NCBI RefSeq assembly: GCF_964355755.1
Contig: NC_092679.1
Location: forward strand, 5,022,001-5,086,000
Length of the DNA stretch: 64,000 nucleotides
Reading direction: 5' to 3'
Origin: Antedon mediterranea
Lineage: Eukaryota > Echinodermata > Crinoidea > Comatulida > Antedonidae
This document shows positions 7,301-63,815 of this stretch, in pieces. Position 1 is the first letter of the stretch; every line of letters starts with the position of its first letter. The position numbers were made by a program, and so were the translations under genes. The notes under the pieces were generated by a model, which saw nothing but the letters and a program-made list of their open reading frames with translations, did no database searches and was not told the DNA's origin.

Positions 7301-10300
7301 TTATGACACAAACCATAAGGAAGTGAGATTAATCTCGGTCGTAACTTCAAATGAACTAAAGACCATAGGAACATGAAACTTACCCATTTGTCCATCTGTC
7401 ATGGCGGTGGTAAAAGCCACACAGAATTCCTCATGTGTGTCAAAACCAGTAATGTATTCAAATGTAAACTGAAAACGTTCTTCTCCATTTTCTGTATAAA
7501 TTTCCTCAGATGATTCGTCGCTAGGATCGCCAAAGATTTCTGATAATACACCAAATGCAAAAGTAACTAGTTTTGTACATCTATCGACGTTACTCATCAG
7601 GCCTAGGCCTCTTTCGCGAAGACGTATAGCCATATTATGACCATCGCCTGCATCTTCGGCTGCTACGATCGCGTCACATGTTCCGCCTAGGCTGCCATAA
7701 CCCGTCACGATACCCAGTAGTTGATCAGCGTAATTAATCAGTTCAACAATATCTAAATCCTCTTCTTCAGAATCATCGCTTGATTCAGGTAAAATCATGT
7801 CAATAATGTCTTGCCAATTTCTACACGCGGCCACAATGTTTTTCCATACGTTCCCCAAGACTATGTCAATGGCGTCAATAATCATTTGTTTCGGTGGTTT
7901 GTCACCGTTGATTATGTTGTCAACGTTCGGACAGATATCAAGTTCTTCGTTGTAGCCAACAACACCCATCAAGTCTTCCAATATTCTATCGAAGTCAATT
8001 GGTATCAGATAAGGCGGGTAGCCATATATTGGCGCAATGATATCCACACATTTATCAGTCAAGTCACGCATTACAAACTGTGGATCCAAAATAACGCTGC
8101 AGATGTCAGTAATCTCTAGGAGTCTTAAAAGTGGGTCAAGATGCGTACACATAGATCTGTACGCTGCAATACCACTTTCTTTACGGATTGCCTCCCCAAT
8201 GATTCCAATAAACTGATCGAATGTTACGTATGGTAAAAATGTATCTTCATTAAATAAGTTCTCTTCCAGGTCAAAATCACTTGGTAATTCTGGCGGGAAC
8301 GCTGGATTTTCGAAACGGACGTTATTGGTTGTTATATCCAGGGCTAAAGCAAGTTTCCGACACATGTCCGTCCGTGAATAACCCGTAAGCTCTTGGATTG
8401 GAATTGAGTAGCCCTCCTCTTCAAAATGAATAAAGAAACTCTCGCAGACGGACGGATCATGCGCAATTGAGTACAGTTTGTTCATGAAATTACCCGCCAC
8501 CTCGTATCGTCTGTCGGGAGAAGTTTCAGCTCCGGAAGAAGAATATGGATAATGACCAAAATAATTATAGTTTTCAAATAATTCTACAATATCTTCGCAC
8601 ATTTCATAACCATTCTCATAGTCGCCAAGAAAAACGAATGTTGCTTTCATGTAATCTAGTATATCAGGCTCTCCGTCTGAGCTTTGTGTAGCGTCATCGT
8701 ATTCCCGAATTAGTTCGGAACAATCGGACGATCGTGACATCATAGTGTTAACAAAGAATTCAACAAGAACATCGGTTATCTGTAAAACGAGAAATCTCTT
8801 GATTCAGTAACTTAAATTGTATGAAATAATTTATTGTTTTCTATCTCGGCAGATCCGTTTCGAAAGGCGAGGGGAAAAAATAAACGATCGAGTAGACCTA
8901 TTACTACTTCTCTTTGCCAAGTAGATTGGGGGTTTCCTTTTTATTACACGCACTACTATTTAAAGTAAATGGTACTTGCAAATTATATTTCAGTAAAGTA
9001 TGGCTGGAAATTACACTCAAAATCAACACTACGGCAAATACATGTAACAGATTCTGGTAGGGGGACCATGTTCCTTTCGCCCTCCCAACCCCCGCACCCC
9101 ACGGACCTGCGCCGTTGACGGTTGCCATATCAGATAGTCTACATAATATAAACTTTGATCGCCTATAGCTCGCGTCGTAATACTTCTAATACTGTACATG
9201 GGTTCGGAGATAATCATAATTTACGTTGCTAGACTGGGAGAACATCTGCCATTTAGATGGTAATAGTTATATATAACACTAAGTGTTTTCGACAAATTTC
9301 CAATTCATTATTAACCAATAACTGAAATTTGTATACATAAATTATAGATAATTCTCTTAATTAAAAGACCATTCATATTGATTGAATGTTAGAAAGCCAT
9401 TAGACAACAATGCATTAAATTATAATTGTTGTGATCTTGTCGGCCATTTAGAGAGTAATTTTCTATTTCAATCTTGTATTTTTTTGTAATAAATTTGGTG
9501 AAATATATGAAATTATATCAGTTTCGTACTTACAAACTTAGCTAAATTATCGTAGTCCCATTCGACTGATTCAGTGAACAATTTACACATATCATGAGGA
9601 TCACAATCTTCAATTTTGTCAGTATATCGAAGCGCATGGCAAAGATCATTTGCTGTTTCTTCAAGTACACTAACTTCGTCTTCGTAATACCATCCGTCGG
9701 AATTCCATACATCGGAATGCCATCCGTAGGAATTCCATACATCGGAATTCCATACATCGGAATGCTCGTCTACGGGGCTGGGAAGGGGGTAGTCATGGTA
9801 AAAGAAGTCGTCAATATATGTGTTAAACTCATCGACTACTTCAACACATGCAGGCATACCAATATCATCGTTTTCATACAAGTGACTGCAAAACTCTGGT
9901 ATACCACCAGGATTCATGTGACCGAAACCTGGCTCGAGGTATTGACATAAAACATTCATTGCTTCGATTCCTTTCTGCTCCTTCTTCATGTCACCGAATA
10001 CGCCTAAGACCTGTGTGAACGTTAGGGAGGAAAATATGAGATCTAACCCAGGCCATCGGTCATCATCTGGCGGTTGCTCACCAAAATCAGCTTCAGTGTA
10101 GTCTGTTGGCTGCGTTAGGCTCATAGTCTCAGTTATTTTTTCGCAGAGCTCCCGAGGGTCAGTATAGCCTGTGTTTTCCTCGAGGTTTAGTGGTAAGTCT
10201 TCTTCTTCGAAAGCATGAAGAAACATCTCACATACCTGAGCATCGTAAAGGATGTCATAGAACGTTTCTACCATACGATCTGCGACGTCATCATCAGTCT

Positions 10301-11188
10301 CATTACAGTGGTATTCATTACGTCCTTCCCATGCGGCATCGGTTGTATAATATGCCACAAAGCGACAAAGTTCATGAGAGTTGTTATATCTGCCAAGGAA
10401 AGTGAACGCAACTCTGATATAATCTAATGCGTCGAATGGTGGAGGTGAGTAACCCCATCCATTCATCGGTTCACCTGTCGGCCAATTCATCGACCCACTC
10501 TCCCACCAACTGAACGGTCCATCCATCGGTCCATCCATCGGTCCGTCCGTTGGCCCACCATCGGCCAACCAATCCATCGGTCCACCATCGGCCCACCCGC
10601 CTGGTGTCGGCAAATCCATCGGCCCATGCATCGGATCGTTAGGCTCAAGTATCATCATTTCGTTGATATAATGGACGCAATCACCGCCATGGCTATGCAT
10701 TACCGCCTTGAAAAACATTTTCAAGCTAGATGTAAACTGCAAACAAACAATATGATCACTTTAATAGAAAATAATAATGGAATATATTTTAAATAACTAA
10801 TAGTTGACTGTTGGATCTTCTATCCGCCGCGTCAAGGATATGCGACAGTGGTTGTGTTTTATTTTTATACATTAGGTACCTTAGTACACGGAATACTCCA
10901 TTACATTTTGGATGTATGCAATTGGAAATGCGAACGGGTGCTTATAATATTTTACTAGATTAGAGCACTTTTCATATACTATTTGAAGAATTGCATGCAT
11001 TCCCATGGATGCGCACATTGTGCACGCAATGCATACAGGTTACGCAATGTAGACTCCATTTTTACATGATTCGGATCAGGATGATTTTAAATGCGTTTTT
11101 ACTGTTTAATTACCCAGGCGGAGGTCAGAACCCTCTGATATCGCTCTTGTTACTGTTATTATTATTATTGCGCTATATAAGAACTGAC

Positions 11189-11264
<76 letters not shown>

Positions 11265-12044
11265 GCCTAGACTAGATTGACAATAGCGCAGTAGCAGTGT
11301 TACCAATAAAATAGTTACCATATCTGCTATTTCTGTGTTGTTCCATTGAATGACATCCGACAAATAATTGCAGACGTCAGTAGGCTCTTCATGTACTCCA
11401 GTAATGTTTTTGAATGCATATATGAAATCATGATAAAGTGTTTCATAGATTAATAAATCATGTTCCGGCCACCACAAGCCCCATGAATCATCACCGAATG
11501 AAGGGAAGAAGCCACCATCATCAGGTGATAAGTCGTCAGAAGGAGAAGATCTCTTTCTTCTTCGCGTAGCTGAAATGGGTTCAACATCAACATGTCCATC
11601 ATAATCGTCGTCATGACTAAAGATCATTTCGCAGTAATCTCGAGTATCAAACCTAGTATCACTCGCAATTTCAGAGCAAACTTCTCCAACAATTTCGCCT
11701 TCGGAGCACAAAAGCCTTTGAAGATGGACCCCCGCGTCGGAGCAAAAAATATTCAAAACATGGCGGATGTTGTGACTGTTGTACATCTTTCCTATCATGG
11801 TCAGAGCGTCCCTGAATGTGAATCCTGGTATGATTTCCCCACGTTGTGCATACAATTCCATATCACAATCCTCGCCATCCTCATCAGACCTACTGCCCGA
11901 ATCTATCGGACTGGCTCGTTTAACAAGACTGCGTCTAACATCAATTTGCGCATCTTCGGGTTTTTCTACTACTCTCCCATTACTGATAAAAGTGTATGTA
12001 CATACGATAAACACCACTTCATATATCAGTAAGTTTAACCGCAT
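51..12044 (-). CDS. REJ-domain, polycystin-1/suREJ-like extracellular protein (5' 15 exons; 3' end off window)
   Basis: Fifteen exons join in consistent phase: 12044-11319, 10736-9534, 8779-7384, 7277-6981, 6694-6500, 6013-5860, 5397-5292, 4813-4663, 4269-4192, 3574-3404, 2219-2013, 1874-1704, 1320-1057, 786-576 and 199-51. Together they give about 1826 residues with no stop. Order seen: signal peptide (about 1-23), repeated Cys modules (about 60-1100), DC-G-C / CG-CGG repeats (about 1110-1350), then a region with REJ-like signatures (CG-V-LDGR-STGSGAR, PGIGDSLTLKPGSL, FEWSV, SLFVPANSLPG). REJ regions occur in polycystin-1 relatives and in sea urchin sperm receptors for egg jelly. Those normally continue into GPS, PLAT and membrane segments, which would lie left of base 1. 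The start is the ATG at 12044 because it gives a good signal peptide. The role (adhesion or receptor) is inferred. Each exon pair joins with matching phase, which argues for one gene rather than several. Confidence 0.82.
200..575. other. intron of REJ-type gene, no feature seen
   Basis: AT-rich intronic sequence between two REJ exons. I see no repeat or open frame of note. Confidence 0.6.
1704..4813 (-). CDS. REJ-type protein exons 8-12: beta-rich repeats leading into REJ region
   Basis: Exons 4813-4663 (VSVAGAGFTSGSMPVCIF), 4269-4192, 3574-3404 (DVVITSVSPLQFTIDRDD), 2219-2013 and 1874-1704 join with phase 1 at each junction. The first resembles an IPT/filamin-like strand pattern (VAGAGFTSG...PVC...L-C-V). 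The last carries RSCADVIQ...LGDGAECKW...ALFILFGNGDNLPGIG, which fits the cysteine pair and LG-G--LPG pattern of REJ repeats. Assignment of the intermediate exons to Ig-like folds is inference. Confidence 0.7.
2378..2605. mobile_element. palindromic MITE (family E) copy 1
   Basis: Left and right arms are imperfect inverted repeats: CTATTTCCGAAGTTTCATAGG pairs with the arm containing CTATGATACTTCGGAAATAG. The inner part also pairs (CACATGTGTTTCACATG). A related, more diverged copy lies at 46540-46760. It sits in an intron of the REJ-type gene. No coding capacity. Confidence 0.65.
2733..2915 (+). mobile_element. tRNA-derived SINE, copy 1
   Basis: Starts ACGGAGTGGAGTTGTGGC. An A-box-like TGGCCTGGTGG and a B box GGGTTCAAGTCC are correctly spaced. 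Between them CTTGG-CTGCCAAT-CCAAG forms a perfect anticodon stem with GCC in the loop, so the head most resembles tRNA-Gly(GCC). A non-tRNA body follows (CTCCACTCCCAAAGACTTG... to TTTGTCTCGTG). A second copy with the same body lies at 5451-5627. Confidence 0.8.
2916..3403. other. intron remainder, AT-rich
   Basis: Homopolymer-rich intronic sequence with a chance open frame on the plus strand (3051-3269) of no recognisable family. Nothing else seen. Confidence 0.5.
3746..3902. mobile_element. MITE family C copy 1
   Basis: Inverted termini TAAAGCTCTGCCTACAC... and ...GTGTAAGAGCTTTA enclose a partly palindromic centre (CATATATGGACATGATG...). Related copies lie at about 26063-26191 and 27551-27672. 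Confidence 0.7.
4270..4662. other. intron of REJ-type gene, no feature seen
   Basis: No repeat or gene recognised. Confidence 0.5.
4859..5073. mobile_element. palindromic MITE family A (GGTTCCCACTAG) copy 1
   Basis: Begins AAGCGTGGTTCCCACTAG and ends with the complement CGCTAGCGGGAACCAAGCTT. TA flanks both ends. The inner half repeats the GTGGGAACCGACG arm. It lies in an intron of the REJ-type gene. Confidence 0.85.
5292..7277 (-). CDS. REJ-type protein exons 4-7: cysteine-rich DC-G-C / CG-CGG repeat region
   Basis: Exons 7277-6981, 6694-6500, 6013-5860 and 5397-5292 join in phase. They encode regularly spaced cysteine repeats such as DCAGICNG, DCLGLCNG, DCAGECGG, ECGDCVGG, DCGGTCNG, ECGECVGG and DACGVCGG. 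This motif type occurs in many secreted or surface proteins of invertebrates and protists. The cysteines are probably paired in disulphides outside the cell (inference). The region links the N-terminal Cys modules to the REJ-like part, and each intron interrupts the repeats at a similar place (within a Gly codon of VGG or PG). Confidence 0.8.
5451..5627 (+). mobile_element. tRNA-derived SINE, copy 2
   Basis: Same family as 2733-2915: ACGGAGTGGAGTTGTGGCTT head, B box GGGTTCAAGTCC, body ACACCACTCCCAACGACTTG. About ten bases of the anticodon arm are lost relative to copy 1, so the tRNA-like fold is broken here. Confidence 0.8.
6188..6310. mobile_element. palindromic MITE family A copy 2 (short form)
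   Basis: TTAAGCGTGGTTCCCACTAG at the left and CGCTAGTGGGAACCAAACATTA at the right, with a GTGGGAACCGACG internal arm. Shorter than copy 1. Confidence 0.85.
6695..6980. other. intron of REJ-type gene, no feature seen
   Basis: Nothing recognised beyond splice signals at the two ends. Confidence 0.5.
7384..8779 (-). CDS. REJ-type protein exon 3: acidic Cys-module exon
   Basis: Encodes about 465 residues in one exon, the longest of the gene. It repeats the layout of exon 2: DILDYMKATFVFLGDY...EMC, then EEEGYSIPIQELTGY...MC, then VTFDQFIGIIGEAI...MC...IC...KC, and finally a partial TGFDTHEEFC unit. It is strongly acidic (runs of D/E such as SSDDSEEEDLD). Acceptor TTTTACAG and donor GTAAGT flank it. 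It ends one base into a codon, which the next exon completes. I recognise no named domain here. Confidence 0.8.
8780..9533. other. intron of REJ-type gene, no feature seen
   Basis: AT-rich, with a short GC-richer patch at about 9060-9120. Minus-strand open frames here carry no recognisable motif. Confidence 0.5.
9534..10736 (-). CDS. REJ-type protein exon 2: Cys modules plus low-complexity W/M/P/G/D tracts
   Basis: Encodes about 401 residues, phase 0 at both ends, so the exon can be duplicated or skipped without a frameshift. It begins FTSSLKMFFKAVM...DC, which aligns with the start of exon 3 (ITDVLVEFFVNTMM...DC). Two low-complexity tracts are encoded by coding minisatellites: a GPMDGPMDGP-like stretch (10440-10650) and a SDVWNSDGW-like stretch (about 9690-9765). 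Between them lie the module DALDYIRVAFTFLGRY...ELC and its partner LTFTQVLGVFGDM...LC...FC...AC. Acceptor TTTGCAG and donor GTAAGT are both good. Confidence 0.8.
9690..9765 (-). repeat. coding minisatellite (SDVWNS-type)
   Basis: Tandem units of GGAATTCCATACATC / GGAATGCCATCCGTA type lie inside exon 2 of the REJ-type gene and encode a WNS/DVW/DGW repeat on the minus strand. Confidence 0.8.
10440..10650 (-). repeat. coding minisatellite (GPMDGP-type)
   Basis: Imperfect repeats of CCATCGGTCCATCCATC-like units encode a Gly/Pro/Met/Asp/Trp-rich low-complexity stretch within exon 2 on the minus strand. Confidence 0.75.
11160..11265. repeat. (TTA)n microsatellite
   Basis: A nearly pure ATT/TTA trinucleotide tract in the intron just 3' of exon 1 of the REJ-type gene. 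It gives long spurious Asn or Tyr frames. Confidence 0.95.
11319..12044 (-). CDS. REJ-type protein exon 1: signal peptide, propeptide-like basic sites, Cys module 1
   Basis: Encodes residues 1-242. The start MRLNLL is followed by a hydrophobic stretch (IYEVVFIVCTYTFIS) typical of a signal peptide. An in-frame TTG 27 bases upstream (12071) would only add a polar lead, so I prefer ATG 12044. A KR pair lies near residue 42-43 and a furin-type RRRKR at about 161-165. Between them sits the first Cys module (FTFRDALTMIGKM...FC...LLC...VC...YC). The exon ends after codon ATG at a GTAACT donor (phase 0). Reading past the donor gives poly-Asn from an ATT/TTA microsatellite, which is intron. Confidence 0.8.
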
Positions 12045-13125
12045 TTTTAACTGGTAATTCAACGCATTCAAATAATGATTGCGTTGGTTGGTCTACGCGG
12101 CTCGGTGTTGCTTCTGCAGTAGCCAAGCTTTATTCGTCGACTTTTACAAGGATGATGTGCTTTATTGATTACCCCACGGATTCTGTAATTCTTGTTATCT
12201 CAACCATAATAATATTTGATATAAGCTACCTCATGAATATACAATACAGTACTCTAAAATCATTATTATTATGCTATTCGTGATTGGTTCACTTGTTGTC
12301 AAAGTAACAGTAACAAAGAATAACCATGGATAAGAAAAAATAGGATCAAAGCCTTCTCATGACGATATCGTTCACTAATTACCGTAGGAAATAGCGAACG
12401 CAGCACACGATTGCGTGCGCAGCATCATGTGCACGTGAGATATGCCAGTATATATATATACATATATAGGCAACTTTATTCCAAAAAATGTAACAAAACG
12501 ACGCACTGTGGATTTACAAAATCTGTTACGTTCTTATATGCATGCATCCTACAACAACAAAAAATATAAAATAACGTAAAAATAAAGATTCAAAATAACA
12601 AAAGCCACTTATTTCTGTTGCTGGCAATCTCACGCAAATTAATTAGGTCGTTTAAATTATTTATCTTAACATTTCTGATAAATAAATCATTTCTAAGTGT
12701 ACTTAACAGATATGCCAGTATGCTATGTCTATTTGCAGGTCGTCAAGGTGTCGTTTCTATGCCAGAGATTAAGTTGTTAATTTAGGCTTAATTAAGGTAG
12801 CATGGGGCCTAAACCATTTGTAATTTACCCTTAATAGTTGTACACAACAATAAACCATTATTAATAGGCTATAAACACAAATTCCATGTATTTAATACGT
12901 ACTAAACATTATTCATTCTCCATTTATACATCTATTTAGAATAAAATACACCGTTCATATCGATCGTTTGACCTTCATCCTTTTAAAAATAGACTATTAT
13001 AGCCATTATTCACAAAAAAACGCGAACACATTCATAAATAGTGTTCACCATTTGTAGTTATAGCAACTATAATAATATGAATTTTAAACGAATTGTTGTC
13101 GACGAGAAAGACAATTAATACCGTA
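12045..13125. promoter_or_regulatory. intergenic region between divergent REJ-type gene and RBM25 (5' flanks)
   Basis: The two genes are transcribed away from each other, so this stretch should hold the promoter of the minus-strand gene. A TA-rich run (TATATATATACATATATAGG) lies near 12450-12470, but it is about 400 bases from the start codon and I cannot call it a TATA box. No gene recognised. Confidence 0.3.
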
Positions 13126-47599: not shown

Positions 47600-49320
47600 A
47601 CATGGATTTTCGAAAATAGCCCAAATTCAACCATTATTTGTTGCCATGCGCAGAGTCGAATATTGGGCATGTCAATTAATATTATGCTATAGTAACCAGT
47701 TTTATCGGAAAATAAAAAGGTCGAAATTTTGCTCTTTTTCGAAAAAATCCATGTACTATAGTACAGGGAAATTTTCGAAAAATTGCCATTTTTCGACCCT
47801 TTTACTATTTACTATAGCATAATAAACATGCGCAGAGTCGAATATTAGGTTCTGCGCATGTCAATTATGCTATAGTAACCAGTTTTATCTATTTTTTGAC
47901 ATACATGGTTACTATAACAAAATAAACATGCGCAGAGTCGAATATTGGGTTTTGCGCATGTTAATTATACTTTAGTAACCAGTTTTATCGGAAAATAAAA
48001 AGGTCGAAATTTTGCTTTTTTTCGTAAAAATCCATGCACTATAGTACAGGGAAAATTTTCGAAAAATGGCCATTTTTCGACCCTTTTATTTTATGATATA
48101 AATAGTTACTATAGCATAATAAACATGCGTAGAGTCAATAATGCTATAGTAACCAGCTTTATCTATTTTTTGACATAAATGGTTACTATAGCAAAATAAA
48201 CATGCGCAGAGGCGAATATTAGGTTCTGCGCATGTCAATAATGCTATAGTAACCAGTTTTATCTATTTTTTGACATAAATGGTAACTATAGCAAAATAAA
48301 CATCCGCAGAGACGAATATTGGGTTCTGCGCGTGTTAATTATGCTATAGTAACCAGTTTTATCGGAAAATAAAAAGGTCAAAATTTTGCTATTTTTCGAA
48401 AAAATCCCTGTGCTATAGTACAGGGAAATTTTTCGAAAAACGGCCATTTTTCGACACTTTTATTTTATGATATAAATAGTTAATATAGCATAATAAACAT
48501 GCGCAGAGTCAAATATTAGGTTTTGCGCATGTTAATTATGCTGTAGTAACCAGTTTTATCTATTTTTTGACATAAATGGTTACTATAGCAAAATGAACAT
48601 GCGCAGATTCGAATATTGGGTTTTGCGCATGTTAATTATGCTATAGTAACCAGTTTTATCGGAAAATAAAAAGGTCTAAATTTTGCTATTTTTCGAAAAA
48701 ATCCCTGTACTATAGTACAGGGAAATTTCCGAAAAAATGGCAATTTTTCGGCCTTTTTATTTTATGATATAAATAGTTACTATAGCATAATATACATGCG
48801 CAGAGTCGAATATTAGGTTCTGCGCATGTCAATTATGCTATAGTAACCAGTTTTATCTATTTTTTGACATAAATGGTTACTATAGCAAAATAAACAGGCG
48901 CAGAGTCGAATATTGGGTTCTGCGCATGTTAATTATGCTATAGTAACCAGTTTTATCGGAAAATAAAAAGGTCGAAATTTTGCTATTTTTCTAAAAAATT
49001 GTCATTTTCGACCCTTTTATTTTATGATATAAATAGTTACTATAGCATAATAAACATGCGTAAAGTTGAATATTAGGTTCTGCGCATGTCAATTATGCTA
49101 TAGTAACCAGTTTTATCTATTTTTTTGACATAAATGGTTACTATATAGCAAGTTAACCATGCGCAGAGTCGAATATTAATTACGCATGTTAATTAAACTA
49201 TAGTAACCAGTTTTATAGGAAAATAAAAAGGTCGAAATTTTGCTATTTTTCGAAATTTGAAACCTTTTATTAGTAAATTAGACAATTTTTTTATTATTTT
49301 GGTTATGTACTATAGCCTAA
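47600..49320. repeat. palindromic satellite, about 6 higher-order units of 260-380 bp
   Basis: Each unit is built from nested inverted repeats. CATGCGCAGA...TCTGCGCATG has a 10-bp stem. GCTATAGTAACCA...TGGTTACTATAGC has a 13-bp stem. The arms AATAAAAAGGTCGAAA...TTTTTCGACCCTTTTATT surround a perfect 20-base palindrome, CCCTGTACTATAGTACAGGG. Unit starts (CCAGTTTTATCGGAAAATA) recur near 47697, 47970, 48351, 48652 and 48950, with a variant near 49210. No coding frame. Confidence 0.9.
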
Positions 49321-49429
49321 TTGTACAGGAATTTTTTTTCGAAAAATTAACAAAATACAGTCGTGAAGAAGACATTGTGTGCGCATGTTACCTTCACGTA
49401 TTTTGAGAAGACTGTATTTAATTTTTAGT

Positions 49430-49500
49430 CGCGTGGACGCGACTCTATAGTTCACTATGTCGGTCGGTCGGTCTGTCGGTCGGTCTGTCGGTCCGGTATC
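49430..49500 (+). mobile_element. AGTCGCGTGGACGCGACT element, left flank of satellite
   Basis: AGTCGCGTGGACGCGACT (itself a hairpin) is followed by CTATAGTTCACTAT and CGGTCGGTCGGTCTGTCGGT repeats, then GGTATCACTATGC. The same block recurs at 61090. The right end of this copy is not evident. Confidence 0.75.
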
Positions 49501-49788
49501 ACTATGCGATTTATCGCTTTCTGACCTTATCTTGATATCAGTTTAATCTAGTCAGTCAATTTTTTACAGTATATTCCTTATGGCCAGGAATCGATGTGGT
49601 TATGTTTTCACGGTGCGCAATAAAAAATTACGCGGTCTACGCACGATTTAACAAAATCACGTTTGTAATCATATCTTCACAACCATGAATCACAATTAAA
49701 TAAAATTTGGTACTCATAAATTTCAGGGCATAAATGATCATATGGCAATACAATTACGTGCGTAGCGCATGTAACGCATGCGTACGCA
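49501..49788. other. unique sequence between element and satellite
   Basis: No gene recognised. Near its end is CGTAGCGCATGTAACGCATGCGTACGCATG, a run of overlapping palindromes just before the first satellite hairpin. Confidence 0.4.
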
Positions 49789-52700
49789 TGTGACTTAGGC
49801 AATTAAGGAGAGCTGACTTATGATCTGCCTAACTCACTGCTTATATATTTATACTGCCCTCTGTACATTATCTGAGTGCTTTTATATACATTTGCACATG
49901 CTCAGATCGTCTTTTTTGTGTTTTTGCCTAAGTCAGCTGTGTGACTTAGGCAATTAAGGAGAGGAGACTCATGATTTTTTAAATAAAATAAGAAATACAT
50001 TTTTATAGTATATTTTTTAACCCATTTGTTACAAATTCTTTCTCTTTTATTGCTACTTTCCTTTTCTAAAATCATCAGTGTTAATTTTAATCTGAAGAGC
50101 TGATGCTATTAAATTTTGTTACTTAAAGGTAGCATTTTTTGTATATAGATGATATCGACAGCCTCATAACAAAAGTGTCTAAGTCATAATTTTTTTTCTG
50201 CCTAACTCACTGCTTATTTCAATATACTATATTTTTTGTGTTTCTGCCTAAGTCAGCTGTGTGACTTAGGCAATTAAGGAGAGCTGACTTATGATCTGCC
50301 TAACTCACTGCTTATATCAATATACTATATTTTTTGTGTTTCTGCCCAAGCCAGCTGTGTGACTTAGGCAATTAAGGAGAGCTGACTTATGATCTGCCTA
50401 ACTCACTGCTTATATCTTTATACTGCCCTCTGTAAATTATCTGAGTGCTTTTATATACATTTGCACATGCTCAGATCGTTTTTTTGTGTTTCTGCCTAAG
50501 TCAGCTGTGTGACTTAGGCAATTAAGGAGAGGAGACTCATGATTTTTTAAATAAAATAAGAAATACATTTTTATAGTATATTTTTTAACCCATTTGTTAC
50601 AAATTCTTTCTCTTTTATTGCTATTTTCCTTTTCTAAAATCATCAGTGTTAATTTTAATCTGAAGAGCTAATGCTATTAAATTTTGTTACTTAAAGGTAG
50701 CATTTTTTGTATATAGATGATATCGACAGCCTCATAACAAAAGTGTCTAAGTCATAATTTTTTTTCTGCCTAACTCACTGCTCATATCAATATACTATAT
50801 TTTTTGTGTTTCTGCCTAAGTCAGCTGTGTGACTTAGGCAATTAAGGAGAGGAGACTCATGGTTTTTTAAATAAAATAAGAAATACATTTTTATAGTATA
50901 TTTTTTAACCCATTTGTTACAAATTCTTTCTCTTTTATTGCTACTTTCCTTTTCTAAAATCATCAGCGTTAATTTTAATCTGAAGAGCTGATGCTATTAA
51001 ATTTTGTTACTTAAAGGTACCTTTTTTTGTATATAGATGATATCGACAGCCTCATAACAAAAGTGTCTAAGTCATAATTTTTTGTTTGTTTTTCTGCCTA
51101 ACTCACTGCTTATATCAATATACTATATTTTTTGTTTTTCTGCCCAAGTCAGCTGTGTGACTTAGGCAATTAAGGAGAGCTGACTTATGATCTGCCTAAC
51201 TCACTGCTTATATCTTTATACTGACCTCTGTACATTATCTGAGTGCTTTTATATACATTTGCACATGCTCAGATCGTCTTTTTTGTGTTTTTGCCTAAGT
51301 CAGCTGTGTGACTTAGGCAATTAAGGAGAGGAGACTCATGATTTTTAAAAAAAAATAAGAAATACATTTTTATAGTATATTTTTTAACCCATTTGTTACA
51401 AATTCTTTCTCTTTTATTGCTACTTTCCTTTTCCAAAATCATCAGTGTTAATTTTAATCTGAAGAGCTGATGCTATTAAATTTTGTTACTTAAAGGTAGC
51501 ATTTTTTTTATATAGATGATATCGACAGCCTCATAACAAAAGTGTCTAAGTCATAATTTTTTTTTCTGCCTAACTCACTGCTTATATCAATATACTATAT
51601 TTTTTGTGTTTCTGCCTAAGTCAGCTGTGTGACTTAGGCAATTAAGGAGAGCTGACTTATGATCTGCCTAACTCACTGCTTATATCAATATACTATATTT
51701 TTTTTGTGTTTCTGCCTAAGTCCGCTGTGTGACTTAGGCAATTCAGGAGAGCTGACTTATGATCTGCTTAACTCACTGCTTATATCTTTATACTGCCCTC
51801 TGTACATTATCTGAGTGCTTTTATATACATTTGCACATGCTCAGATCGTTTTTTTGTGTTTCTGCCTAAGTCAGCTGTGTGACTTAGGCAATTAAGAAGA
51901 GGAGACTCATGATTATTTAAATAAAATAAGAAATACATTTTTATAGTATATTTTTTAACCCATTTGTTACAAATTCTTTCTCTTTTATTGCTACTTTCCT
52001 TTTATAAAATCATCAGTGTTAATTTTAATCTGAAGAGCTGATGCTATTAAATTTTGTTACTTAAAGGTAGCATTTTTTGTATATAGATGATATCGACAGC
52101 CTCATAACAAAAGTGTCTAAGTCATAATTTTTTTTTCTGCCTAACTCACTGCTTATTTCAATATACTATATTTTTTGTGTTTCTGCCCAAGCCAGCTGTG
52201 TGACTTAGGCAATTAAGGAGAGCTGACTTATGATCTGCCTAATTCACTGCTTATATCTTTCTACTGCCCTCTGTAAATTATCTGAGTGCTTTTATATACA
52301 TTTGCACATGCTCAGATCGTTTTTTTTTTGTGTTTCTGCCTAAGTCACAACCTAAGTCAGCTGTGTGACTTAGGCAATTAAGGAGAGGAGACTCATGATT
52401 TTTTAAATAAAATAAGAAATACATTTTATAGTATATATTTTAACCCATTTGTTACAAATTCTTTCTCTTTTATTGCTACTTTCCTTTTCCAAAATCATCA
52501 GTGTTAATTTTATTCTGAAGAGCTGATGCTATTAAATTTTGTTACTTAAAGGTAGCATTTTTTTTATATAGATGATATCGACAGTCTCATAACAAAAGTG
52601 TCTAAGTCATAATTTTTGTTTTGTTTTTCTGCCTAACTCACTGCTTATATCAATATACTATATTTTTTGTGTTTCTGCCCAAGTCAGCTGTGTGACTTAG

Positions 52701-55700
52701 GCAATTAAGGAGAGGAGACTCATGATATTTTAAATAAAATAAGAAACACATTTTTATAGTATACTTTTTAACCCATTAATTTGTTACAAATTCTTTCTCT
52801 TTTATTGCTACTTTCCTTTTCTAAAATCATCAGTTTTAATTTTAATCTGAAGAGCTGATGCTATTAAATTTTGTTACTTAAAGGTAGCATTTTTTGTATA
52901 TAGATGATATCGACAGCCTCATAACAAAAGTGTCTAAGTCATAATTTTTTGTTTGTTTTTCTGCCTAACTCACTGCTTATATCAATATACTATATTTTTT
53001 GTGTTTCTGCCCAAGTCAGCTGTGTGACTTAGGCAATTAAGGAGAGCTGACTTATGATCTGCCTAACTCACTGCTTATATCTTTATACTGACCTCTGTAC
53101 ATTATCTGAGTGCTTTTATATACATTTGCACATGCTCAGATCGTCTTTTTTGTGTTTTTGCCTAAGTCAGCTGTGTGACTTAGGCAATTAAGGAGAGGAG
53201 ACTCATGATTTTTTAAATAAAATAAGAAATACATTTTTATAGTATATTTTTTAACCCATTTGTTACAAATTCTTTCTCTTTTATTGCTACTTTCCTTTTC
53301 CAAAATCATCAGTGTTAATTTTAATCTGAAGAGCTGATGCTATTAAATTTTGTTACTTAAATGTAGCATTTTTTGTATATAGATGATATCGACAGCCTCA
53401 TAACAAAAGTGTCTAAGTCATAATTTTTTTTTTCTGCCTAACTCACTGCTTATATCAATATACTATATTTTTTGTGTTTCTGCCTAAGTCAGCTGTGTGA
53501 CTTAGGCAATTAAGGAGAGCTGACTTATGATCTACCTAACTCACTGCTTATATCAATATACTATATTTTTTGTGTGTTTCTGCCCAAGTCCGCTGTGTGA
53601 CTTAGGCAATTCAGGAGAGCTGACTTATGATCTGCTTAACTCACTGCTTATATCTTTATACTGCCCTCTGTACATTATCTGAGTGCTTTTATATACATTT
53701 GCACATGCTCAGATCGTTTTTTTGTGTTTCTGCCTAAGTCAGCTGTGTGACTTAGGCAATTAAGAAGAGGAGACTCATGATTTTTTAAATAAAATAAGAA
53801 ATACATTTTTATAGTATATTTTTTAACCCATTTGTTACAAATTCTTTCTCTTTTATTGCTACTTTCCTTTTCTAAAATCATCAGTATTAATTTTAATCTG
53901 AAGAGCTGATGCTATTAAATTTTGTTACTTAAAGGTAGCATTTTTTGTATATAGATGATATCGACAGCCTCATAACAAAAGTGTCTAAGTCATAATTTTT
54001 TTTTCTGCCTAACTCACTGCTTATTTCAATATACTATATTTTTTGTGTTTCTGCCTAAGTCAGCTGTGTGACTTAGGCAATTAAGGAGAGCTGACTTATG
54101 ATCTGCCTAACTCACTGCTTATATCAATATACTATATTTTTTGTGTTTCTGCCCAAGCCAGCTGTGTGACTTAGGCAATTAAGGAGAGCTGACTTATGAT
54201 CTGCCTAACTCACTGCTTATATCTTTATACTGCCCTCTGTAAATTATCTGAGTGCTTTTATATACATTTGCACATGCTCAGATCGTTTTTTTTTTGTGTT
54301 TCTGCCTAAGTCACAACCTAAGTCAGCTGTGTGACTTAGGCAATTAAGGAGAGGAGACTCATGATTTTTTAAATAAAATAAGAAATACATTTTATAGTAT
54401 ATATTTTAACCCATTTGTTACAAATTCTTTCTCTTTTATTGCTACTTTCCTTTTCCAAAATCATCAGTGTTAATTTTATTCTGAAGAGCTGATGCTATTA
54501 AATTGTGTTACCTAAAGGTAGCATTTTTTTGTATATAGATGATATCGATAGTCTCATAACAAAAGTGTCTAAGTCATAATTTTTGTTTTGTTTTTCTGCC
54601 TAACTCACTGCTTATATCAATATACTATATTTTTTGTGTTTCTGCCCAAGTCAGCTGTGTGACTTAGGCAATTAAGGAGAGGAGACTCATGATTTTTTAA
54701 ATAAAATAAGAAATACATTTTTATAGTATATTTTTTAACCCATTAGTTACAAATTCTTTCTCTTTTATTGCTACTTTCCTTTTCCAAAATCATCAGTGTT
54801 AATTTTAATCTGAAGAGCTGATGCTATTAAATTTTGTTACTTAAAGGTAGCATTTTTTGTATATAGATGATATCGACAGCCTTTTAACAAAAGTGTCTAA
54901 GTCATAATTTTTTGTTTGTTTTTCTGCCTAACTCACTGCTTATATCAATATACTATATTTTTTGTGTTTCTGCCCAAGTCAGCTGTGTGACTTAGGCAAT
55001 TAGGAGAGCTGACTTATGATCTGCCTAACTCACTGCTTATATCTTTATACTGCCCTCTGTAAATTATCTGAGTGCTTTTATATACATTTGCACATGCTCA
55101 GATCGTTTTTTTTTTGTGTTTCTGCCTAAGTCACAACCTAAGTCAGCTGTGTGACTTAGGTAATTAAGAAGAGGAGACTCATGATTTTTAAAATAAAATA
55201 AGAAATACATTTTTATAGTATATTTTTTAACCCATTTGTTACAAATTCTTTCTCTTTTATTGCTACTTTCCTTTTCCAAAATCATCAGTGTTAATTTTAA
55301 TCTGAAGAGCTGATGCTATTAAATTGTGTTACTTAAAGGTAGCATTTTTTGTATATAGATGATATCGACAGCCTCATAACAAAAGTGTCTAAGTCATAAT
55401 TTTTTGTTTGTTTTTCTGCCTAACTCACTGCTTATATCAATATACTATATTTTGTGTGTTTCTGCCCAAGTCAGCTGTGTGACTTAGGCAATTAAGGAGA
55501 GCCGACTTATGATCTGCCTAACTCACTGCTTATATCTTTATACTGCCCTCTGTAAATTATCTGAGTGCTTTTATATACATTTGCACATGCTCAGATCGTT
55601 TTTTTGTTGTTTCTGCCTAAGTCAGCTGTGTGACTTAGGCAATTAAGGAGAGGAGACTCATGATTTTTTAAATAAAATAAGAAATACATTTTTATAGTAT

Positions 55701-58700
55701 ATTTTTTAACCCATTTGTTACAAATTCTTTCTCTTTTATTGCTACTTTCCTTTTCCAAAATCATCAGTGTTAATTTTAATCTGAAGAGCTGATGCTATTA
55801 AATTTTGTTACTTAAAGGTAGCATTTTTTGTATATAGATGATATCGACAGTCTCATAACAAAAGTGTCTAAGTCATAATTTTTGTTTTGTTTTTCTGCCT
55901 AACTCACTGCTTATATCAATATACTATATTTTTTGTGTTTCTGCCCAAGTAAGCTGTGTGACTTAGGCAATTAAGGAGAGGAGACTCATGATTTTTTAAA
56001 TAAAATAAGAAATACATTTTTATAGTATATTTTTTAACCCATTTGTTACAAATTCTTTCTCTTTTATTGCTACTTTCCTTTTCTAAAATCATCAGTGTTA
56101 ATTTTAATCTGAAGAGCTGATGCTATTAAATTTTGTTACTTAAAGGTAGCATTTTTTGTATATAGATGATATCGACAGCCTCATAACAAAAGTGTCTAAG
56201 TCATAATTTTTTTTTTTTTTTTCTGCCTAACTCACTGCTTATATCAATATACTATATTTTTTGTGTTTCTGCCCAAGTCAGCTGTGTGACTTAGGCAATT
56301 AAGGAGAGCTGACTTATGATCTGCCTAACTCACTGCTTATATCTTTATACTGACCTCTGTACATTATCTGAGTGCTTTTATATACATTTGCACATGCTCA
56401 GATCGTCTTTTTTGTGTTTCTGCCTAAGTCAGCTGTGTGACTTAGGCAATTAAGGAGAGGAGACTCATGATTTTTTAAATAAAATAAGAAATACATTTTT
56501 ATAGTATATTTTTTAACCCATTTGTTACAAATTCTTTCTCTTTTATTGCTACTTTCCTTTTCCAATATCATCAGTGTTAATTTTAATCTGAAGAGCTGAT
56601 GCTATTAAATTTTGTTACTTAAAGGTAGCATTTTTTGTATATAGATGATATCGACAGCCTCATAACAAAAGTGTCTAAGTCATAATTTTTTTTTCTGCCT
56701 AACTCACTGCTTATATCAATATACTATATTTTTTGTGTTTCTGCCTAAGTCAGCTGTGTGACTTAGGCAATTAAGGAGAGCTGACTTATGATCTGCCTAA
56801 CTCACTGCTTATATCAATATACTATATTTTTTATGTGTTTCTGCCTAAGTCCGCTGTGTGACTTAGGCAATTAAGGAGAGCTGACTTATGATCTGCTTAA
56901 CTCACTGCTTATATCTTTATACTGCCCTCTGTACATTATCTGAGTGCTTTTATATACATTTGCACATGCTCAGATCATTTTTTGTTTGTTTCTGCCTAAG
57001 TCAGCTGTTTGACTTAGGCAATTAAGGAGAGGAGACTCATGATTTTTTAAATAAAATAAGAAATACATTTTTATAGTATATTTTTTAACCCATTTGTTAC
57101 AAATTCTTTCTCTTTTATTGCTACTTTCCTTTTCTAAAATCATCAGTGTTAATTTTAATCTGAAGAGCTGATGCTATTAAATTTTGTTACTTAAAGGTAG
57201 CATTTTTTTGTATATAGATGATATCGACAGCCTCATAACAAAAGTGTCCAAGTCATAATTTTTTGTTTGTTTTTCTGCCTAACTCACTGCTTATATCAAT
57301 ATACTATATTTTTTGTGTTTCTGCCCAAGTCAGCTGTGTGACTTAGGCAATTAAGGAGAGCTGACTTATGATCTGCCTAACTCACTGCTTATATCTTTAT
57401 ACTGCCCTCTGTAAATTATCTGAGTGCTTTTATATACATTTGCACATGCTCAGATCATTTTTGTTTGTGTTTCTGCCTAAGTCACAACCTAAGTCAGCAG
57501 TGTGACTTAGGCAATTAAGGAGAGGAGACTCATGATTTTTTAAATAAAATAAGAAATACATTTTTATAGTATATTTTTTAACCCATTTGTTACAAATTCT
57601 TTCTCTTTTATTGCTACTTTCCTTTTCTAAAATCATCAGTGTTAATTTTAATCTGAAGAGCTAATGCTATTAAATTTTGTTACTTAAAGATAGCATTTTT
57701 TGTATATAAATGATATCGACAGCCTCATAACAAAAGTGTCTAAGTCATAATTTTGTTTTTCTGCCTAACTCACTGCTTATATCAATATACTATATTTTTT
57801 GTGTTTCTGCCCAAGTCAGCTGTGTGACTTAGGCAATTAAGGAGAGCTGACTTGTGATCTGCCTAACTCACTGCTTATGTCAATATACTATATTTTTTTG
57901 TGTTTCTGCCTAAGTCCGCTGTGTGACTTAGGCAATTCAGGAGAGCTGACTTATGATCTGCCTAACTCACTTCTTATATCTTTATACTGCCCTCTGTACA
58001 TTATCTGAGTGCTTTTATATACATTTGCACATGCTCAGATCGTTTTTTTGTGTTTCTGCTTAAGTCAGCTGTGTGACTTAGGCAATTAAGGAGAGGAGAC
58101 TCATGATTTTTTAAATAAAATAAGAAATACATTTTTATAGTATATTTTTTAACCCATTTGTTACAAATTCTTTCTCTTTTATTGCTACTTTCCTTTTCTA
58201 AAATCATCAGTGTTAATTTTAATCTGAAGAGCTAATGCTATTAAATTTTGTTACTTAAAGATAGCATTTTTTGTATATAGATGATATCGACAGCCTCATA
58301 ACAAAAGTGTCTAAGTCATAATTTTTTTTTTCTGCCTAACTCACTGCTTATATCAATATACTATATTTTTTGTATTTCTGCCTAAGTCAGCTGTGTGACT
58401 TAGGCAATTAAGGAGAGCTGACTTATGATCTGCCTAACTCACTGCTTATATCAATATACTATATTTTTTGTGTTTCTGCGTAAGTCAGCTGTGTGACTTA
58501 GGCAATTAAGGAGAGCTGACTTATGATCTGCCTAACTCACTGCTTATATCTTTATACTGCCCTCTGTACATTATCTGAGTGCTTTTATATACATTTGCAC
58601 ATGCTCAGATCGTTTTTTGTGTTTCTGCCTAAGTCAGCTGTGTGACTTAGGCAATTAAGGAGAGGAGACTCATGATATTTTAAATAAAATAAGAAACACA

Positions 58701-61090
58701 TTTTTATAGTATATTTTTTAACCCATTTGTTACAAATTCTTTCTCTTTTATTGCTACTTTCCTTTTCCAAAATCATCAGTGTTAATTTTAATCTGAAGAG
58801 CTGATGCTATTAAATTTTGTTACTTAAAGGTAGCATTTTTTGTATATAGATGATATCGACAGCCTCATAACAAAAGTGTCTAAGTCATAATTTTTTTTTT
58901 CTGCCTAACTCACTGCTTATATCAATATACTATATTTGTTGTGTTTCTGCCTAAGTCAGCTGTGTGACTTAGGCAATTCAGGAGAGCTGACTTATGATCT
59001 GCCTAACTCACTGCTTATATCAATATACTATATTTTTTGTGTGTTTCTGCCTAAGTCCGCTGTGTGACTTAGGCAATTCAGGAGAGCTGACTTATGATCT
59101 GCCTAACTCACTGCTTATATCTTTATACTGCCCTCTGTACATTATCTGAGTGCTTTTATATACATTTGCACATGCTCAGATCGTTTTTTTTGTGTTTCTG
59201 CCTCAGTCAGCTGTGTGACTTAGGCAATTAAGGAGAGGAGACTCATGCTTTTTTAAATAAAATAAGAAATACATTTTTATAGTATATTTTTTAACCCATT
59301 TGTTACAAATTCTTTCCCTTTTATTGCTACTTTCCTTTTCTAAAATCATCAGTGTTAATTTTAATCTGAAGAGCTAATGCTATTAAATTTTGTTACTTAA
59401 AGGTAGCATTTTTTGTATATAGATGATATCGACAGCCTCATAACAAAAGTGTCTAAGTCATAATTTTTTGTTTGTTTTTCTGCCTAACTCACTGCTTATA
59501 TCAATATACTATATTTTTTGTGTTTCTGCCCAAGTCAGCTGTGTGACTTAGGCAATTAAGGAGAGCTGACTTATGATCTGCCAAACTCACTGCTTATGTC
59601 AATATACTATATTTTTTTTTGTGTTTCTGCCTAAGTCAGCTGTGTGACTTAGGCAATTAAGGAGAGTTGACTTATGATCTGCCTAACTCACTGCTTATAT
59701 CAATATACTATATTGTTTGTGTTTCTGCCTAAGTCAGCTGTGTGACTTAGGCAATTAAGGAGAGCTGACTTATGATCTGCCTAACTCACTGCTTATATCT
59801 TTATACTGCCCTCTGTACATTATCTGAGTGCTTTTATATACATTTGCACATGCTTAGATCGTTTTTTTGTGTTTCTGCCTAAGTCAGCTGTGTGACTTAG
59901 GCAATTAAGGAGAGGAGAATCATGATTTTTTAAATAAAATAAGAAATACATTTTTATAGTATATTTTTTAACCCATTTGTTACAAATTCTTTCTCTTTTA
60001 TTGCTACTTTCCTTTTCCAAAATCATCAGTGTTAATTTTAATCTGAAGAGCTGATGCTATTAAATTTTGTTACTTAAAGGTAGCATTTTTTGTATATAGA
60101 TGATATCGACAGTCTCATAACAAAAGTGTCTAAGTCATAATTTTTGTTTTGTTTTTCTGCCTAACTCACTGCTTATATCAATATACTATATTTTTTGTGT
60201 TTCTGCCCAAGTCAGCTGTGTGACTTAGGCAATTAAGGAGAGCTGACTTATGATCTGCCTAACTCACTGCTTATATCTTTATACTGCCCTCTGTACATTA
60301 TCTGAGTGCTTTTATATACATTTGCACATGTTCAGATCGTTTTTTTTTTGTGTTTCTGCCTAAGTCACAACCTAAGTCAGCTGTGTGACTTAGGCAATTA
60401 AGGAGAGGAGACTCATGATTTTTAAATAAAATAAGAAATACATTTTTATAGTATATTTTTTAACCCATTTGTTACAAATTCTTTCTCTTTTATTGCTACT
60501 TTCCTTTTCCAAAATCATCAGTGTTAATTTTAATCTGAAGAGCTGATGCTATTAAATTTTGTTACTTAAAGGTAGCATTTTTTGTATATAGATGATATCG
60601 ACAGCCTCATAACAAAAGTGTCTAAGTCATAATTTTTTTTTTCTGCCTAACTCACTGCTTATTTCAATATACTATATTTTTTGTGTTTCTGCCTAAGTCA
60701 GCTGTGTGACTTAGGCAATTAAGGAGAGCTGACTTATGATCTGCCTAACTCACTGCTTATATCAATATACTATATTTTTTGTGTTTCTGCCTAAGTCAGC
60801 TGTGTGACTTAGGCAATTAAGGAGAGCTGACTTATGATCTGCCTAACTCACTGCTTATATCAATATACTATATTTGTTGTGTTTCTGCCTAAGTCCGCTG
60901 TGTGACTTAGGCAATTCAGGAAAGCTGACTTATGATCTGCCTAACTCACTGCTTATATCTTTATACTGCCCTCTGTACATTATCTGAGTGCTTTTATATA
61001 CATTTGCACATGCTCAGATCGTTTTTTTGTGTTTCTGCCTAAGTCAGCTGCGTGACTTAGGCAATTAAGAAGAGGAGACTCATGATTTTT
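49789..61090. repeat. 11.3-kb modular hairpin satellite
   Basis: Every module begins with a hairpin of 11-bp stem (TGCCTAAGTCA-GCTGTG-TGACTTAGGCA) and AATTAAGGAGAG. Three continuations occur. SX is about 100 bp: CTGACTTATGATCTGCCTAA...CAATATACTATATTTTTTG. SY is about 150 bp: same start, then CTTTATACTGCCCTCTG, TTTGCACATGCTCAGATC. L is about 320 bp: GAGACTCATGATTTTTTAAA to GATGATATCGACAGCCTC and back to CAATATACTATA. I count about 19 SY and 22 L modules. Minus-strand 60-70 codon frames recur in L modules only because the repeats are alike; they lack gene signals. The array ends in a truncated L at 61089. Confidence 0.95.
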
Positions 61091-61193
61091 TAGTCGCGTG
61101 GACGCGACTCTATAGTTCACTATTCCGGTCGGTCGGTCGGTCTGTCGGTCTGTCTGTCGGTCCGGTATCACTATGCATTGTAGCACGCGACTT
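61090..61193 (+). mobile_element. short TIR element AGTCGCGTG...CACGCGACT, right flank of satellite
   Basis: AGTCGCGTGGACGCGACT, CTATAGTTCACTAT, CGGTCGGTCGGTCGGTCTGT, GGTATCACTATGC, ending GTAGCACGCGACT. The ends AGTCGCGTG and CACGCGACT are exact inverted complements, so this about 100-bp copy looks complete and non-autonomous. It interrupts an L module of the satellite at GATTTTTT. Confidence 0.8.
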
Positions 61194-61596
61194 AATGGCT
61201 GTTGGCCTTGTTCGAATAAAAATCCCTGTACAATTATAGTGCCGGGTTTATTCCGAAAATCAGCCGAATTTCGAATGATTATTTTTTGCCATGCGCAGAA
61301 GTAAACAGTGTGTTCTCTGCGCATGTTACTTCAAATATATTTTGAAAAGGCTATCTTTTGGTCATATTCCGAAAAAATCTAAGATGATGACAACCCAAAA
61401 TAGGCATGTAATATAGCAATATTATCGCATAATATATTTTGGCCATTTTTGGAGGACTGTAATACAAATACTATTATAATACAATTAACTTGATATAATA
61501 CAACATAATTGCACACACATCTTAAATAAATATATTATAGAAAATATCAATTTTATAAATATAACCTAAAAATATTATTTAATAACCAGAAAGTGG
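61194..61596. other. flank with degenerate palindromic-satellite sequence
   Basis: AAAAATCCCTGTAC, TTCCGAAAATC, CCATGCGCAGAAGT and TCTGCGCATGTTACTTC echo the unit of the 47.6-49.3 kb array. It appears to be one diverged unit. The rest is AT-rich 3' flank of the following exon. Confidence 0.55.
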
Positions 61597-62689: not shown

Positions 62690-63815
62690 TTTGCTAGTGT
62701 AGATATGGAAGGCAATCACCGCCAAAAATACAATTACAAACATACAAGATATTCGTGGAAATATACAACGTACACGCAGAAACGTACAACGCACTCGCAG
62801 AAACGTACAACGTACTCGCAGAAACATACAACGAACTTGCAGAAACATACAACGTACTTGAAATTGATTAGATCATTAGGAGAAAAAACTCAAAATCATT
62901 CTGGATTAAACTAAAACAAACACATTAACATACATATTAATACATGGCGCACTCACTTCGAATCCTTATTTCATAATAATGAAAATAGAGGTAATCAAAA
63001 TGTAGAAAGTATCATTAATAATGAACCTGCTGTAAATGAAAACAAACTTGACCTAAATAATGACATTACAGTAGATGAGGTAATTCATGCCATTAAATAA
63101 AAAAAAAACAGGTAAATCACCTGGAATCGATGGATTATTACCAAAACTTTGTATAAACTCATCACAAAATGTAATATATATATATATATTATATAGATGC
63201 ACCTTCCTCATGGTTGGTTCCACAAACGTTTAATATCCAAACTTTTTACTGTCCCACTAGTTTTATTTACGTACGTGCACCTTACCTGTTAATGAAGCCA
63301 TAGCGGTAAATTTATTGCGCGGTTAAGACCTCAACAACGGTAGGAAAAATGCAAATGTTTACTTATTTTTATACGGTCGATTTCTGATTCTGAAAGGAAA
63401 CATGGAAGTGGCCCATTTTGCAGAAGTGATAATCCTGCAAATAAGAAAAATGATAAATAAAAAAACCCCGCGTTATCTTTATCTTTGAAATGCTTGATTG
63501 AATATTATAATATTTTCATCCTAAATGTCCACACCCTTTATATAATGGACGATTCCATAGTTATTTTCTGCGCATTCATTTTCGCGACTTCGTTGTACCT
63601 TTTTGTGTTTGTCTGTTTCAGCAAACACGTTGTACGTTTTTGTGTTGTCCTTTTCTTCAAGTACGTTGTATGTTTCTGCGAGTACGTTGTACGTTTCTGC
63701 GAGTGCGTTGTACGTTTCTGCGTGTACGTTGTATATTTCTACGAATATATTGTATGTTTGTAATTGTATTTTTGGCGGTGATTGCCTTCCATATGTAGAC
63801 CAGTTGACAAACTGC
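62690..63815. mobile_element. fold-back element with minisatellite arms
   Basis: The left arm (about 62690-62862: ATATGGAAGGCAATCACCGC, AAAATACAATTACAAACATA, then ACGTACAACGCACTCGCAGA-type repeats) is the inverted complement of the right arm (about 63605-63795). The centre holds a LINE reverse transcriptase fragment. The facing arms give matching spurious frames on opposite strands. Confidence 0.8.
62946..63165 (+). pseudogene. LINE reverse transcriptase N-terminal fragment
   Basis: The translation has NKLDLNNDITVDEVIHAIK, a stop, and KKTGKSPGIDGLLPKLC. It is the classic I---EV--AI---K-GKSPGIDG--PE entry of a non-LTR reverse transcriptase, broken by a stop and then by a (TA)n tract. Confidence 0.75.

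Follow-up and report, generated by a model that had tools for sequence, protein, structure and literature searches.

The modular satellite found in one stretch of the genome of the crinoid Antedon mediterranea raises the question of why its units follow one another in a preferred order and of what larger structure, if any, the array belongs to. The window, meaning the whole stretch of 64,000 nucleotides that was analyzed (C10:5,022,001-5,086,000), had been described preliminarily as holding an ordered mosaic of modules; that description overlooked that the array sits inside a transposable element. The array appears to be the center of a single noncoding mobile element of 11.8 kb (49,427 to 61,212), and we assign a probability of roughly 0.87 to this reading and to the identification of the element, from its sequence, as a composite nonautonomous Helentron (HINE) carrying the array as internal cargo. 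The array was found with Tandem Repeats Finder and by reading of the letters, and its modules, named X, Y, and L (SX, SY, and L in the preliminary description), were cut at a shared header. We label the hairpin-bearing 5' end LF, a second 5'-type hairpin LF2, and the 3' end RF.

Motif searches of the genome (354.4 Mb in 18 contigs, with ~353.5 Mb in 11 large contigs) at up to three mismatches gave 1,016 matches for Y, 1,041 for L, and 0 for the controls, and the satellite was read at 22 places besides the window. A first-fetched sample, chosen regardless of junction, comprised 16 arrays (that of the window, A to K, M, N, and two at O), three of which (G, H, and D) run to the limit of the fetched sequence and are truncated there.

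At the window, AGTCGCGTGGACGCGACT together with a GTCK microsatellite occurs at both 49,427 and 61,092, and the 3' module reads GCACGCGACT...GGCCTTGTT (Table 1). Subterminal inverted repeats of 9 bp (AGTCGCGTG and CACGCGACT) are present at both ends, and the 5' hairpin, AGTCGCG-TGGA-CGCGACT, has a 7-bp stem. Compared with the 5' end of array E, the 5' module and linker show 97.2% identity over 362 columns; identity is 90.5 to 95% with the corresponding sequences of J, A, and Q and with the internal element of E, 88% with the internal element of Q, and 80% over 157 columns with I. The 3' module is of a short type known from long HINEs of this genome. Both outer flanks belong to another repeat, which the element interrupts. 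This palindromic 100/297-bp tandem family (CATGCGCA cores, CCTGTA...TACAGG; 47,645 to 49,300) also flanks or abuts A, C, G, I, J, N, and O and is a frequent landing site. A structured-RNA array was considered as a candidate and rejected, as the 20 cmscan matches all lie in this left-flank repeat (47,649 to 48,961) and are all below the gathering score. No tRNA was found in the window.

Table 1. Features of the composite element and its flanks (positions within the window)
Feature	Position	Strand	Remarks
Left flank, palindromic 100/297-bp repeat family	47,645-49,426	.	Type of DNA hosting the insertion
LF, subterminal repeat and inverted partner forming a hairpin	49,427-49,444	+	Directly after TTTTT; folds with a 7-bp stem
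GTCK-type tetranucleotide microsatellite of the 5' module	49,459-49,493	+	
Linker	49,494-49,787	+	Right side cut off
Modular satellite array	49,788-61,091	+	22 L (320-332 bp), 19 Y (149-165 bp), 12 X (98-101 bp), truncated final L head
LF2, second 5'-type hairpin	61,092-61,109	+	Joined to the L head at CATGATTTTTT
LF2 microsatellite	61,126-61,162	+	
RF, subterminal repeat CACGCGACT and short palindrome	61,183-61,212	+	Ends in GGCCTTGTT
Right flank	61,213-61,400	.	Interrupted palindromic repeat resumes

Dispersed copies and filled and empty sites indicate how such ends insert. Minimal copies of the module (~120 bp) are scattered genome-wide (2,207 candidates, 40 scored), and among the 12 of the 40 scored copies that were fetched, TTTTT precedes the copy in all 12 and the 3' end follows within ~120 bp in 10. 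Three of the 12 (L013, L014, and L020) are longer copies with differing flanks, in which a 5' module, a linker of ~600 bp, a second 5' module, and a 3' end follow one another; L016 has the same linker-second-module junction. This junction, ATGCCTTTTT, accounts for 62 of the 100 matches listed, of 104. Joining of the flanks of the window element without the element itself gives sequence that is continuous at C2:32,616,028, C10:14,771,344, and C5:6,422,886 (76 to 78%), and the joined flanks of site I are continuous over positions 1 to 130 of 130 at at least nine places (73 to 85%), including C7:23,360,278 and C2:2,864,527. In array Q, a HINE of 806 bp lies exactly within the T6 of two L modules (...GCATTTTT-HINE-TGTATATAG...). 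These two modules are 13.8 kb apart, in copies of a 6.3-kb block that are 99.4% identical and thus carry the same inserted HINE twice; therefore, insertion came first and duplication of the block followed.

The satellite and a HINE 3' end are joined at many loci. Ten of the 16 first-fetched arrays end at their 3' side in LF2, and nine of these ten retain RF. The junction ...TATAGTATATTTTT-LF2 is found in eight arrays (B, D, F, I, K, N, and both O copies), with a damaged hairpin in F, and the TATAGTATATTTTT stretch is also present in E, which has lost the hairpin. Junction-pattern rows with at most one mismatch numbered 20, made up of seven first-fetched arrays, nine newly read loci, and four left out. 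The nine further junctions, from 13 new rows, comprise eight satellite-LF2 junctions, seven of them with RF, and one minimal HINE elsewhere. Outer flanks are unlike among several of the satellite-LF2 loci, and other loci lie in the palindromic repeat family. LF2 is immediately preceded by a terminal Y without header hairpin in B, E, F, K, N, and Q and in six of the seven other satellite loci picked by the pattern. That a single junction recurs at many loci therefore points to array and 3' end traveling together. At the window, the last L head ends after CATGATTTTTT at 61,091, and the junction of CATGATTTTTT with LF2 is unique: its 25-base pattern has one exact match among 104 genome matches at up to two mismatches. 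This unique junction and the short-type 3' module suggest at least two independent acquisitions of a 3' end.

LF was found at the window and in A (where its hairpin is lost), E, I, J, N, and Q. Elements complete at both ends measure 4.7 kb (N, with its 5' module at C2:12,714,508 and RF in view), 11.8 kb (window), 22.8 kb (I), and 43,089 bp (Q), although assembly errors are possible in long arrays. Site I has 107 headers and the same plan as the window element; Q has 178 headers and two internal HINEs. The 5' linker meets the array at varying points, with ...GCGCTCACTC common to E and N, and 5' modules outnumber 3' ends in both E (three hairpins, two RF) and Q (four hairpins, three RF). Counting the insertions in A, J, E, and Q, HINE ends have joined three different T-runs of L. 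In Q, the 5' module is separated from the modular array by another repetitive sequence (GACAGCGTCAATGTTTT...; L056, C8:12,817,800-12,823,800), which also occurs to the left of arrays K, F, and O and may mark a two-array element. Array D continues past an inserted LINE-like stretch (L062, C2:15,692,501-15,696,000) to the fetched edge, with at least 19 more header positions, which enter no count.

The anatomy of the element is that of a HINE, with subterminal inverted repeats, an inverted partner at the 5' repeat, a tetranucleotide microsatellite on the left, and T-rich insertion without target-site duplication (in the 12 fetched copies, at the filled site in Q, and at the empty sites). A canonical Helitron, which has 5' TC and 3' CTRR and sits between A and T, was rejected, as the element starts with AG, ends with GTT, and sits in a T-run. 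The microsatellite, the terminal scheme, and satellite cargo have been described for HINEs of oysters (PMC7492417), and the terminal scheme has been described in mites and flies (PMC4067079). HINEs with satellite cargo are already well known. The genome contains 87 matches to the Helitron_like_N profile. Of these, 41 fall within open frames no shorter than 2,500 amino acids and have very similar scores, apparently representing a young, high-copy autonomous family, and a 5' module was observed near a Rep open reading frame (ORF) in L037.

Parsing of the window array gave 54 headers, belonging to 53 complete modules and the truncated L head, in the order YLXYLLYLXYLYLLYLXYLXYLLYLYLLYLXYLYLXYLXYLXYLXXYLYLXXY followed by the cut L head. 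The preliminary description recognized one header and three bodies; the header is indeed shared, but the bodies decompose into two heads (a short head, S, and the L head, which is S plus ~222 extra bases) and two tails (X and Y). In the window, L has the X tail in every case, and the combination of L head and Y tail is absent; insert-broken modules aside, N and Q each have a single module labeled in this way (374 and 336 bp, respectively). Every Y is followed by an L head (19 of 19; 18 complete, one truncated), as had been claimed from inspection by eye, whereas 20,000 shufflings of the modules gave a mean of 8.1 and a maximum of 16 such pairs. L is followed by X (10 cases), Y (8), or L (4), also in agreement with the earlier claim, and X is followed by Y (10) or X (2) and never by L. 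Treating Y-L as a single symbol leaves the order nonrandom (P = 0.0009, 20,000 shuffles). The run X-X-Y-L is present, but to say that it recurs was generous, with two occurrences, the second having the truncated L. Of the periods proposed at the outset, that near 570 bp stands out clearly (574 bp; z = 7.5 relative to 30 module-order shuffles), that of ~820 bp is weak (0.091 versus 0.043 ± 0.022 in such shuffles), and that of 1,400 bp is no higher than in the shuffles (0.052 versus 0.037 ± 0.019).

Successors were pooled over 15 arrays, including the 18 complete cases of the window and excluding locus P (no headers), the forward copy of O (two headers), and the cut-off last module of each array; merged or unclear modules were kept as classes of their own. 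Among 185 Y modules, the successor was L in 163, X in 10, Y in 9, an insert-broken L in 2, and LY in 1. In the largest array, Q, 67 Y modules were followed by L (50), X (6), Y (4), or unclassified modules (7). In the pooled arrays other than that of the window, X or Y comes after Y in 19 of 167 cases, concentrated in C (four Y-X) and G (six Y-X and seven Y-Y), with one Y-Y each in D and M, and the exceptions in C and G repeat within duplicated blocks. The preference for Y-L is thus family-wide, and the absolute rule is local to the window, Y-X and Y-Y being present in other arrays and in Q. The supposed grammar, then, is real as nonrandom order and is ruled out as a strict rule; most likely, it is the trace of multi-unit block copying.

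Amplification of multi-module blocks, as the preliminary description had suggested, is strongly supported by the sequences of sister arrays and is weakly indicated within the window itself. For the distance-correlation and block tests, modules were limited to lengths of 300-350 (L), 90-106 (X), and 135-170 (Y). Linked differences between Y and the following L are expected if neighbors are copied together, and the Y-L distance correlation is strong in C (r = 0.89), A (0.72), H (0.69), and E (0.54) and weak in G (0.27, P = 0.04), I (0.22, P = 0.0005), and D (0.23, P = 0.06). In the window, it is 0.21 (P = 0.04), and that of L-X is 0.39 (P = 0.006); X-Y (r = 0.03) and L-Y (r = -0.03) are not significant there. 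Elsewhere, the L-X correlation is high in D, E, and H and nil in C and I, and the X-Y correlation is high only in H. Runs of matching modules were scored at a distance threshold of 0.03 against 200 within-class permutations. In C, a 12-module block of ~2,267 bp is repeated, giving 30 consecutive matching modules (permutation maximum, 9); the longest runs in H and E are 33 (maximum, 13) and 15 (maximum, 9), and runs beyond all 200 permutations were also found in I (11), A (7), and D (5). The longest runs in the window (5; maximum, 6), G (4; maximum, 9), and F (3; maximum, 4) are within the permutation range. Coincident neighbor pairs exceed chance in the window (38 versus 24.2 ± 4.2) and in G (43 versus 22.1 ± 4.6), and F shows no block excess. 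All 22 L modules of the window, with 194 compared, had their nearest relative inside the window, as did 15 of 19 Y and 9 of 12 X. The result for L fits local amplification after arrival. In satellites with higher-order repeats, multi-module blocks are amplified together. Here also, blocks are more alike than the monomers within them, clearly in C, E, H, A, and Q and weakly in the window; unlike those satellites, these arrays are bounded by transposon ends and occupy many separate loci.

A mechanism that would join these results begins with HINEs, whose targets are T-runs, inserting time and again into those of the L modules. A stretch of satellite would then have been bracketed by an upstream 5' end and a downstream 3' end, and the bracketed stretch would have moved as a single unit by rolling-circle transposition, via a putative autonomous Helentron. 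Within each copy, modules may have been amplified as multi-module blocks, either by unequal exchange or by replication of a template without a 3' stop, so that each locus would gain its own favored order, that of the window being (X)Y-L(-L).

The mobility of the element is something that we infer, and several observations weigh against it or against the HINE assignment. The 9-bp subterminal repeat is shorter than the 11 to 15 bp usual for HINEs (PMC4067079, PMC7492417), and the 3' palindrome of the window is weak, with a 3-bp stem under DNA parameters compared with 5 bp in the J-type end. The empty-site matches of the window stand at just 76 to 78% over 70 to 94 bases, and block linkage inside the window is weak. 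No LF was present in the fetched left flanks of B, C, F, K, M, and both O copies, the 5' edges of G, H, and D lie beyond the DNA followed, E retains merely a remnant of LF2, and four of the 20 junction-pattern rows (one mismatch each) are outside those read. A HINE is expected to share its ends with an autonomous Helentron, in which Rep/helicase is fused to an endonuclease, but no such Helentron with these termini was found: the pieces fetched around a Helitron-like ORF of ~3,100 amino acids (C8:0.936 Mb) did not show them, and the 5' pieces of two Helitron-like copies align over nearly their full length, with no family boundary reached. Finally, LF2 is missing from the 3' edge in six of the 16 arrays (A, C, G, H, J, and M), as might be expected if the array were an ordinary stand-alone satellite and HINEs had merely inserted in or beside its L modules, which are rich in T-runs. 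The insertion of HINEs within Q and the unique junction of the window would fit that explanation as well. We nevertheless consider it improbable: many loci, among them several whose outer flanks clearly differ, have one junction base and one terminal block in common, and the sequences on either side of the window element and of site I are continuous elsewhere.

The origin of the order allows further alternatives to block copying. A true grammar, in which a transcript or DNA fold requires the Y-L unit, would explain the 19 of 19 cases in the window and the majorities in the pooled arrays (163 of 185) and Q (50 of 67); it is very improbable, since other arrays tolerate Y-X and Y-Y, which recur within the repeated blocks of C and G, and since cmscan gave no Rfam match inside the array at E values up to 1. 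It is less far-fetched, although still unlikely, that the blocks were made during rolling-circle transposition, by replication past the 3' end into concatemers, rather than by later unequal exchange. The excess of 5' modules over 3' ends within E and Q and the model described for plant Helitrons (PMC12628747) argue for it, whereas block lengths vary between loci and the nearest relatives of window modules lie in the window, as local exchange would also give.

Among known systems, the composite HINE proposed here is close to Cg_HINE of the Pacific oyster (PMC7492417), with which it has in common the 5' subterminal repeat and inverted partner, a GTCY/GTCK microsatellite, a variable spacer, central tandem repeats in one orientation, a 3' subterminal repeat (with a palindrome that is weak in the window), and a T-rich target that is not duplicated. 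Cg_HINE arrays are built of monomers of 138 to 181 bp drawn from a single cluster (exceptionally, two arrays follow one another) and mostly have up to 5 monomers, the longest having 29; here, in contrast, the satellite is multi-modular, complete elements of 4.7 to 43.1 kb have as many as 178 headers, and the 3' end is preceded by a second 5' module. DINE-1/HINE families (PMC4067079) have the same terminal anatomy and a T target, but the portions consulted mention no modular satellite cargo, and an autonomous partner is linked there and not here. Arrays of plant Helitrons in which several 5' ends accompany a single 3' end (Xiong et al., via PMC12628747) likewise have 5' modules in excess of 3' ends, although their repeat unit is the truncated Helitron and not a separate satellite. 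Because the same source, in the portions consulted, already has "shuffled" Helitron-satellite loci in oyster along with these several-5'/one-3' arrays, novelty is limited. Composites this large with a modular satellite were not met in the open-license PMC literature, insofar as its texts were consulted, and nothing there linked a Helentron to "higher order repeat."

How satellite DNA moves between chromosomal places is an old question, and one genome seemingly keeps intermediate states here: a HINE cleanly within a module, many loci at which the satellite is joined to a fixed HINE 3' end, and complete composites. Tentatively, at somewhat less than even odds, two HINEs in satellite T-runs may act like the insertion sequence pair of a composite transposon and move tens of kilobases (43 kb in Q) as a rolling-circle unit. 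In such composite Helentrons, L would be a reusable landing pad from which new composite families arise repeatedly (three T-runs), with each moved array evolving its own order. Inserted HINEs are natural tags that reveal the copying of multi-module blocks, and the size of the composites bears on the suggestion that long arrays limit mobility (PMC7492417).

Some minor observations concern neighboring sequence. From reading only, the composite ends at L054 (C9:2,340,800-2,341,500) and on the 3' side of D (L005, C2:15.68 Mb) adjoin a putative exon of a Rab GTPase and the putative beginning of a gene for a short-chain reductase. Elsewhere in the window, neighboring open frames of 155 to 500 amino acids on the minus strand (6,931 to 12,092) are, by eye, acidic and partly cysteine rich, with no Pfam match. 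A 21-bp tandem repeat (ACGTACTCGCAGAAAC...) lies at 62,738 to 62,858 and has, by eye, an inverted partner ~0.7 kb away (~63,600 to 63,760), with reverse-transcriptase-like sequence between the two.

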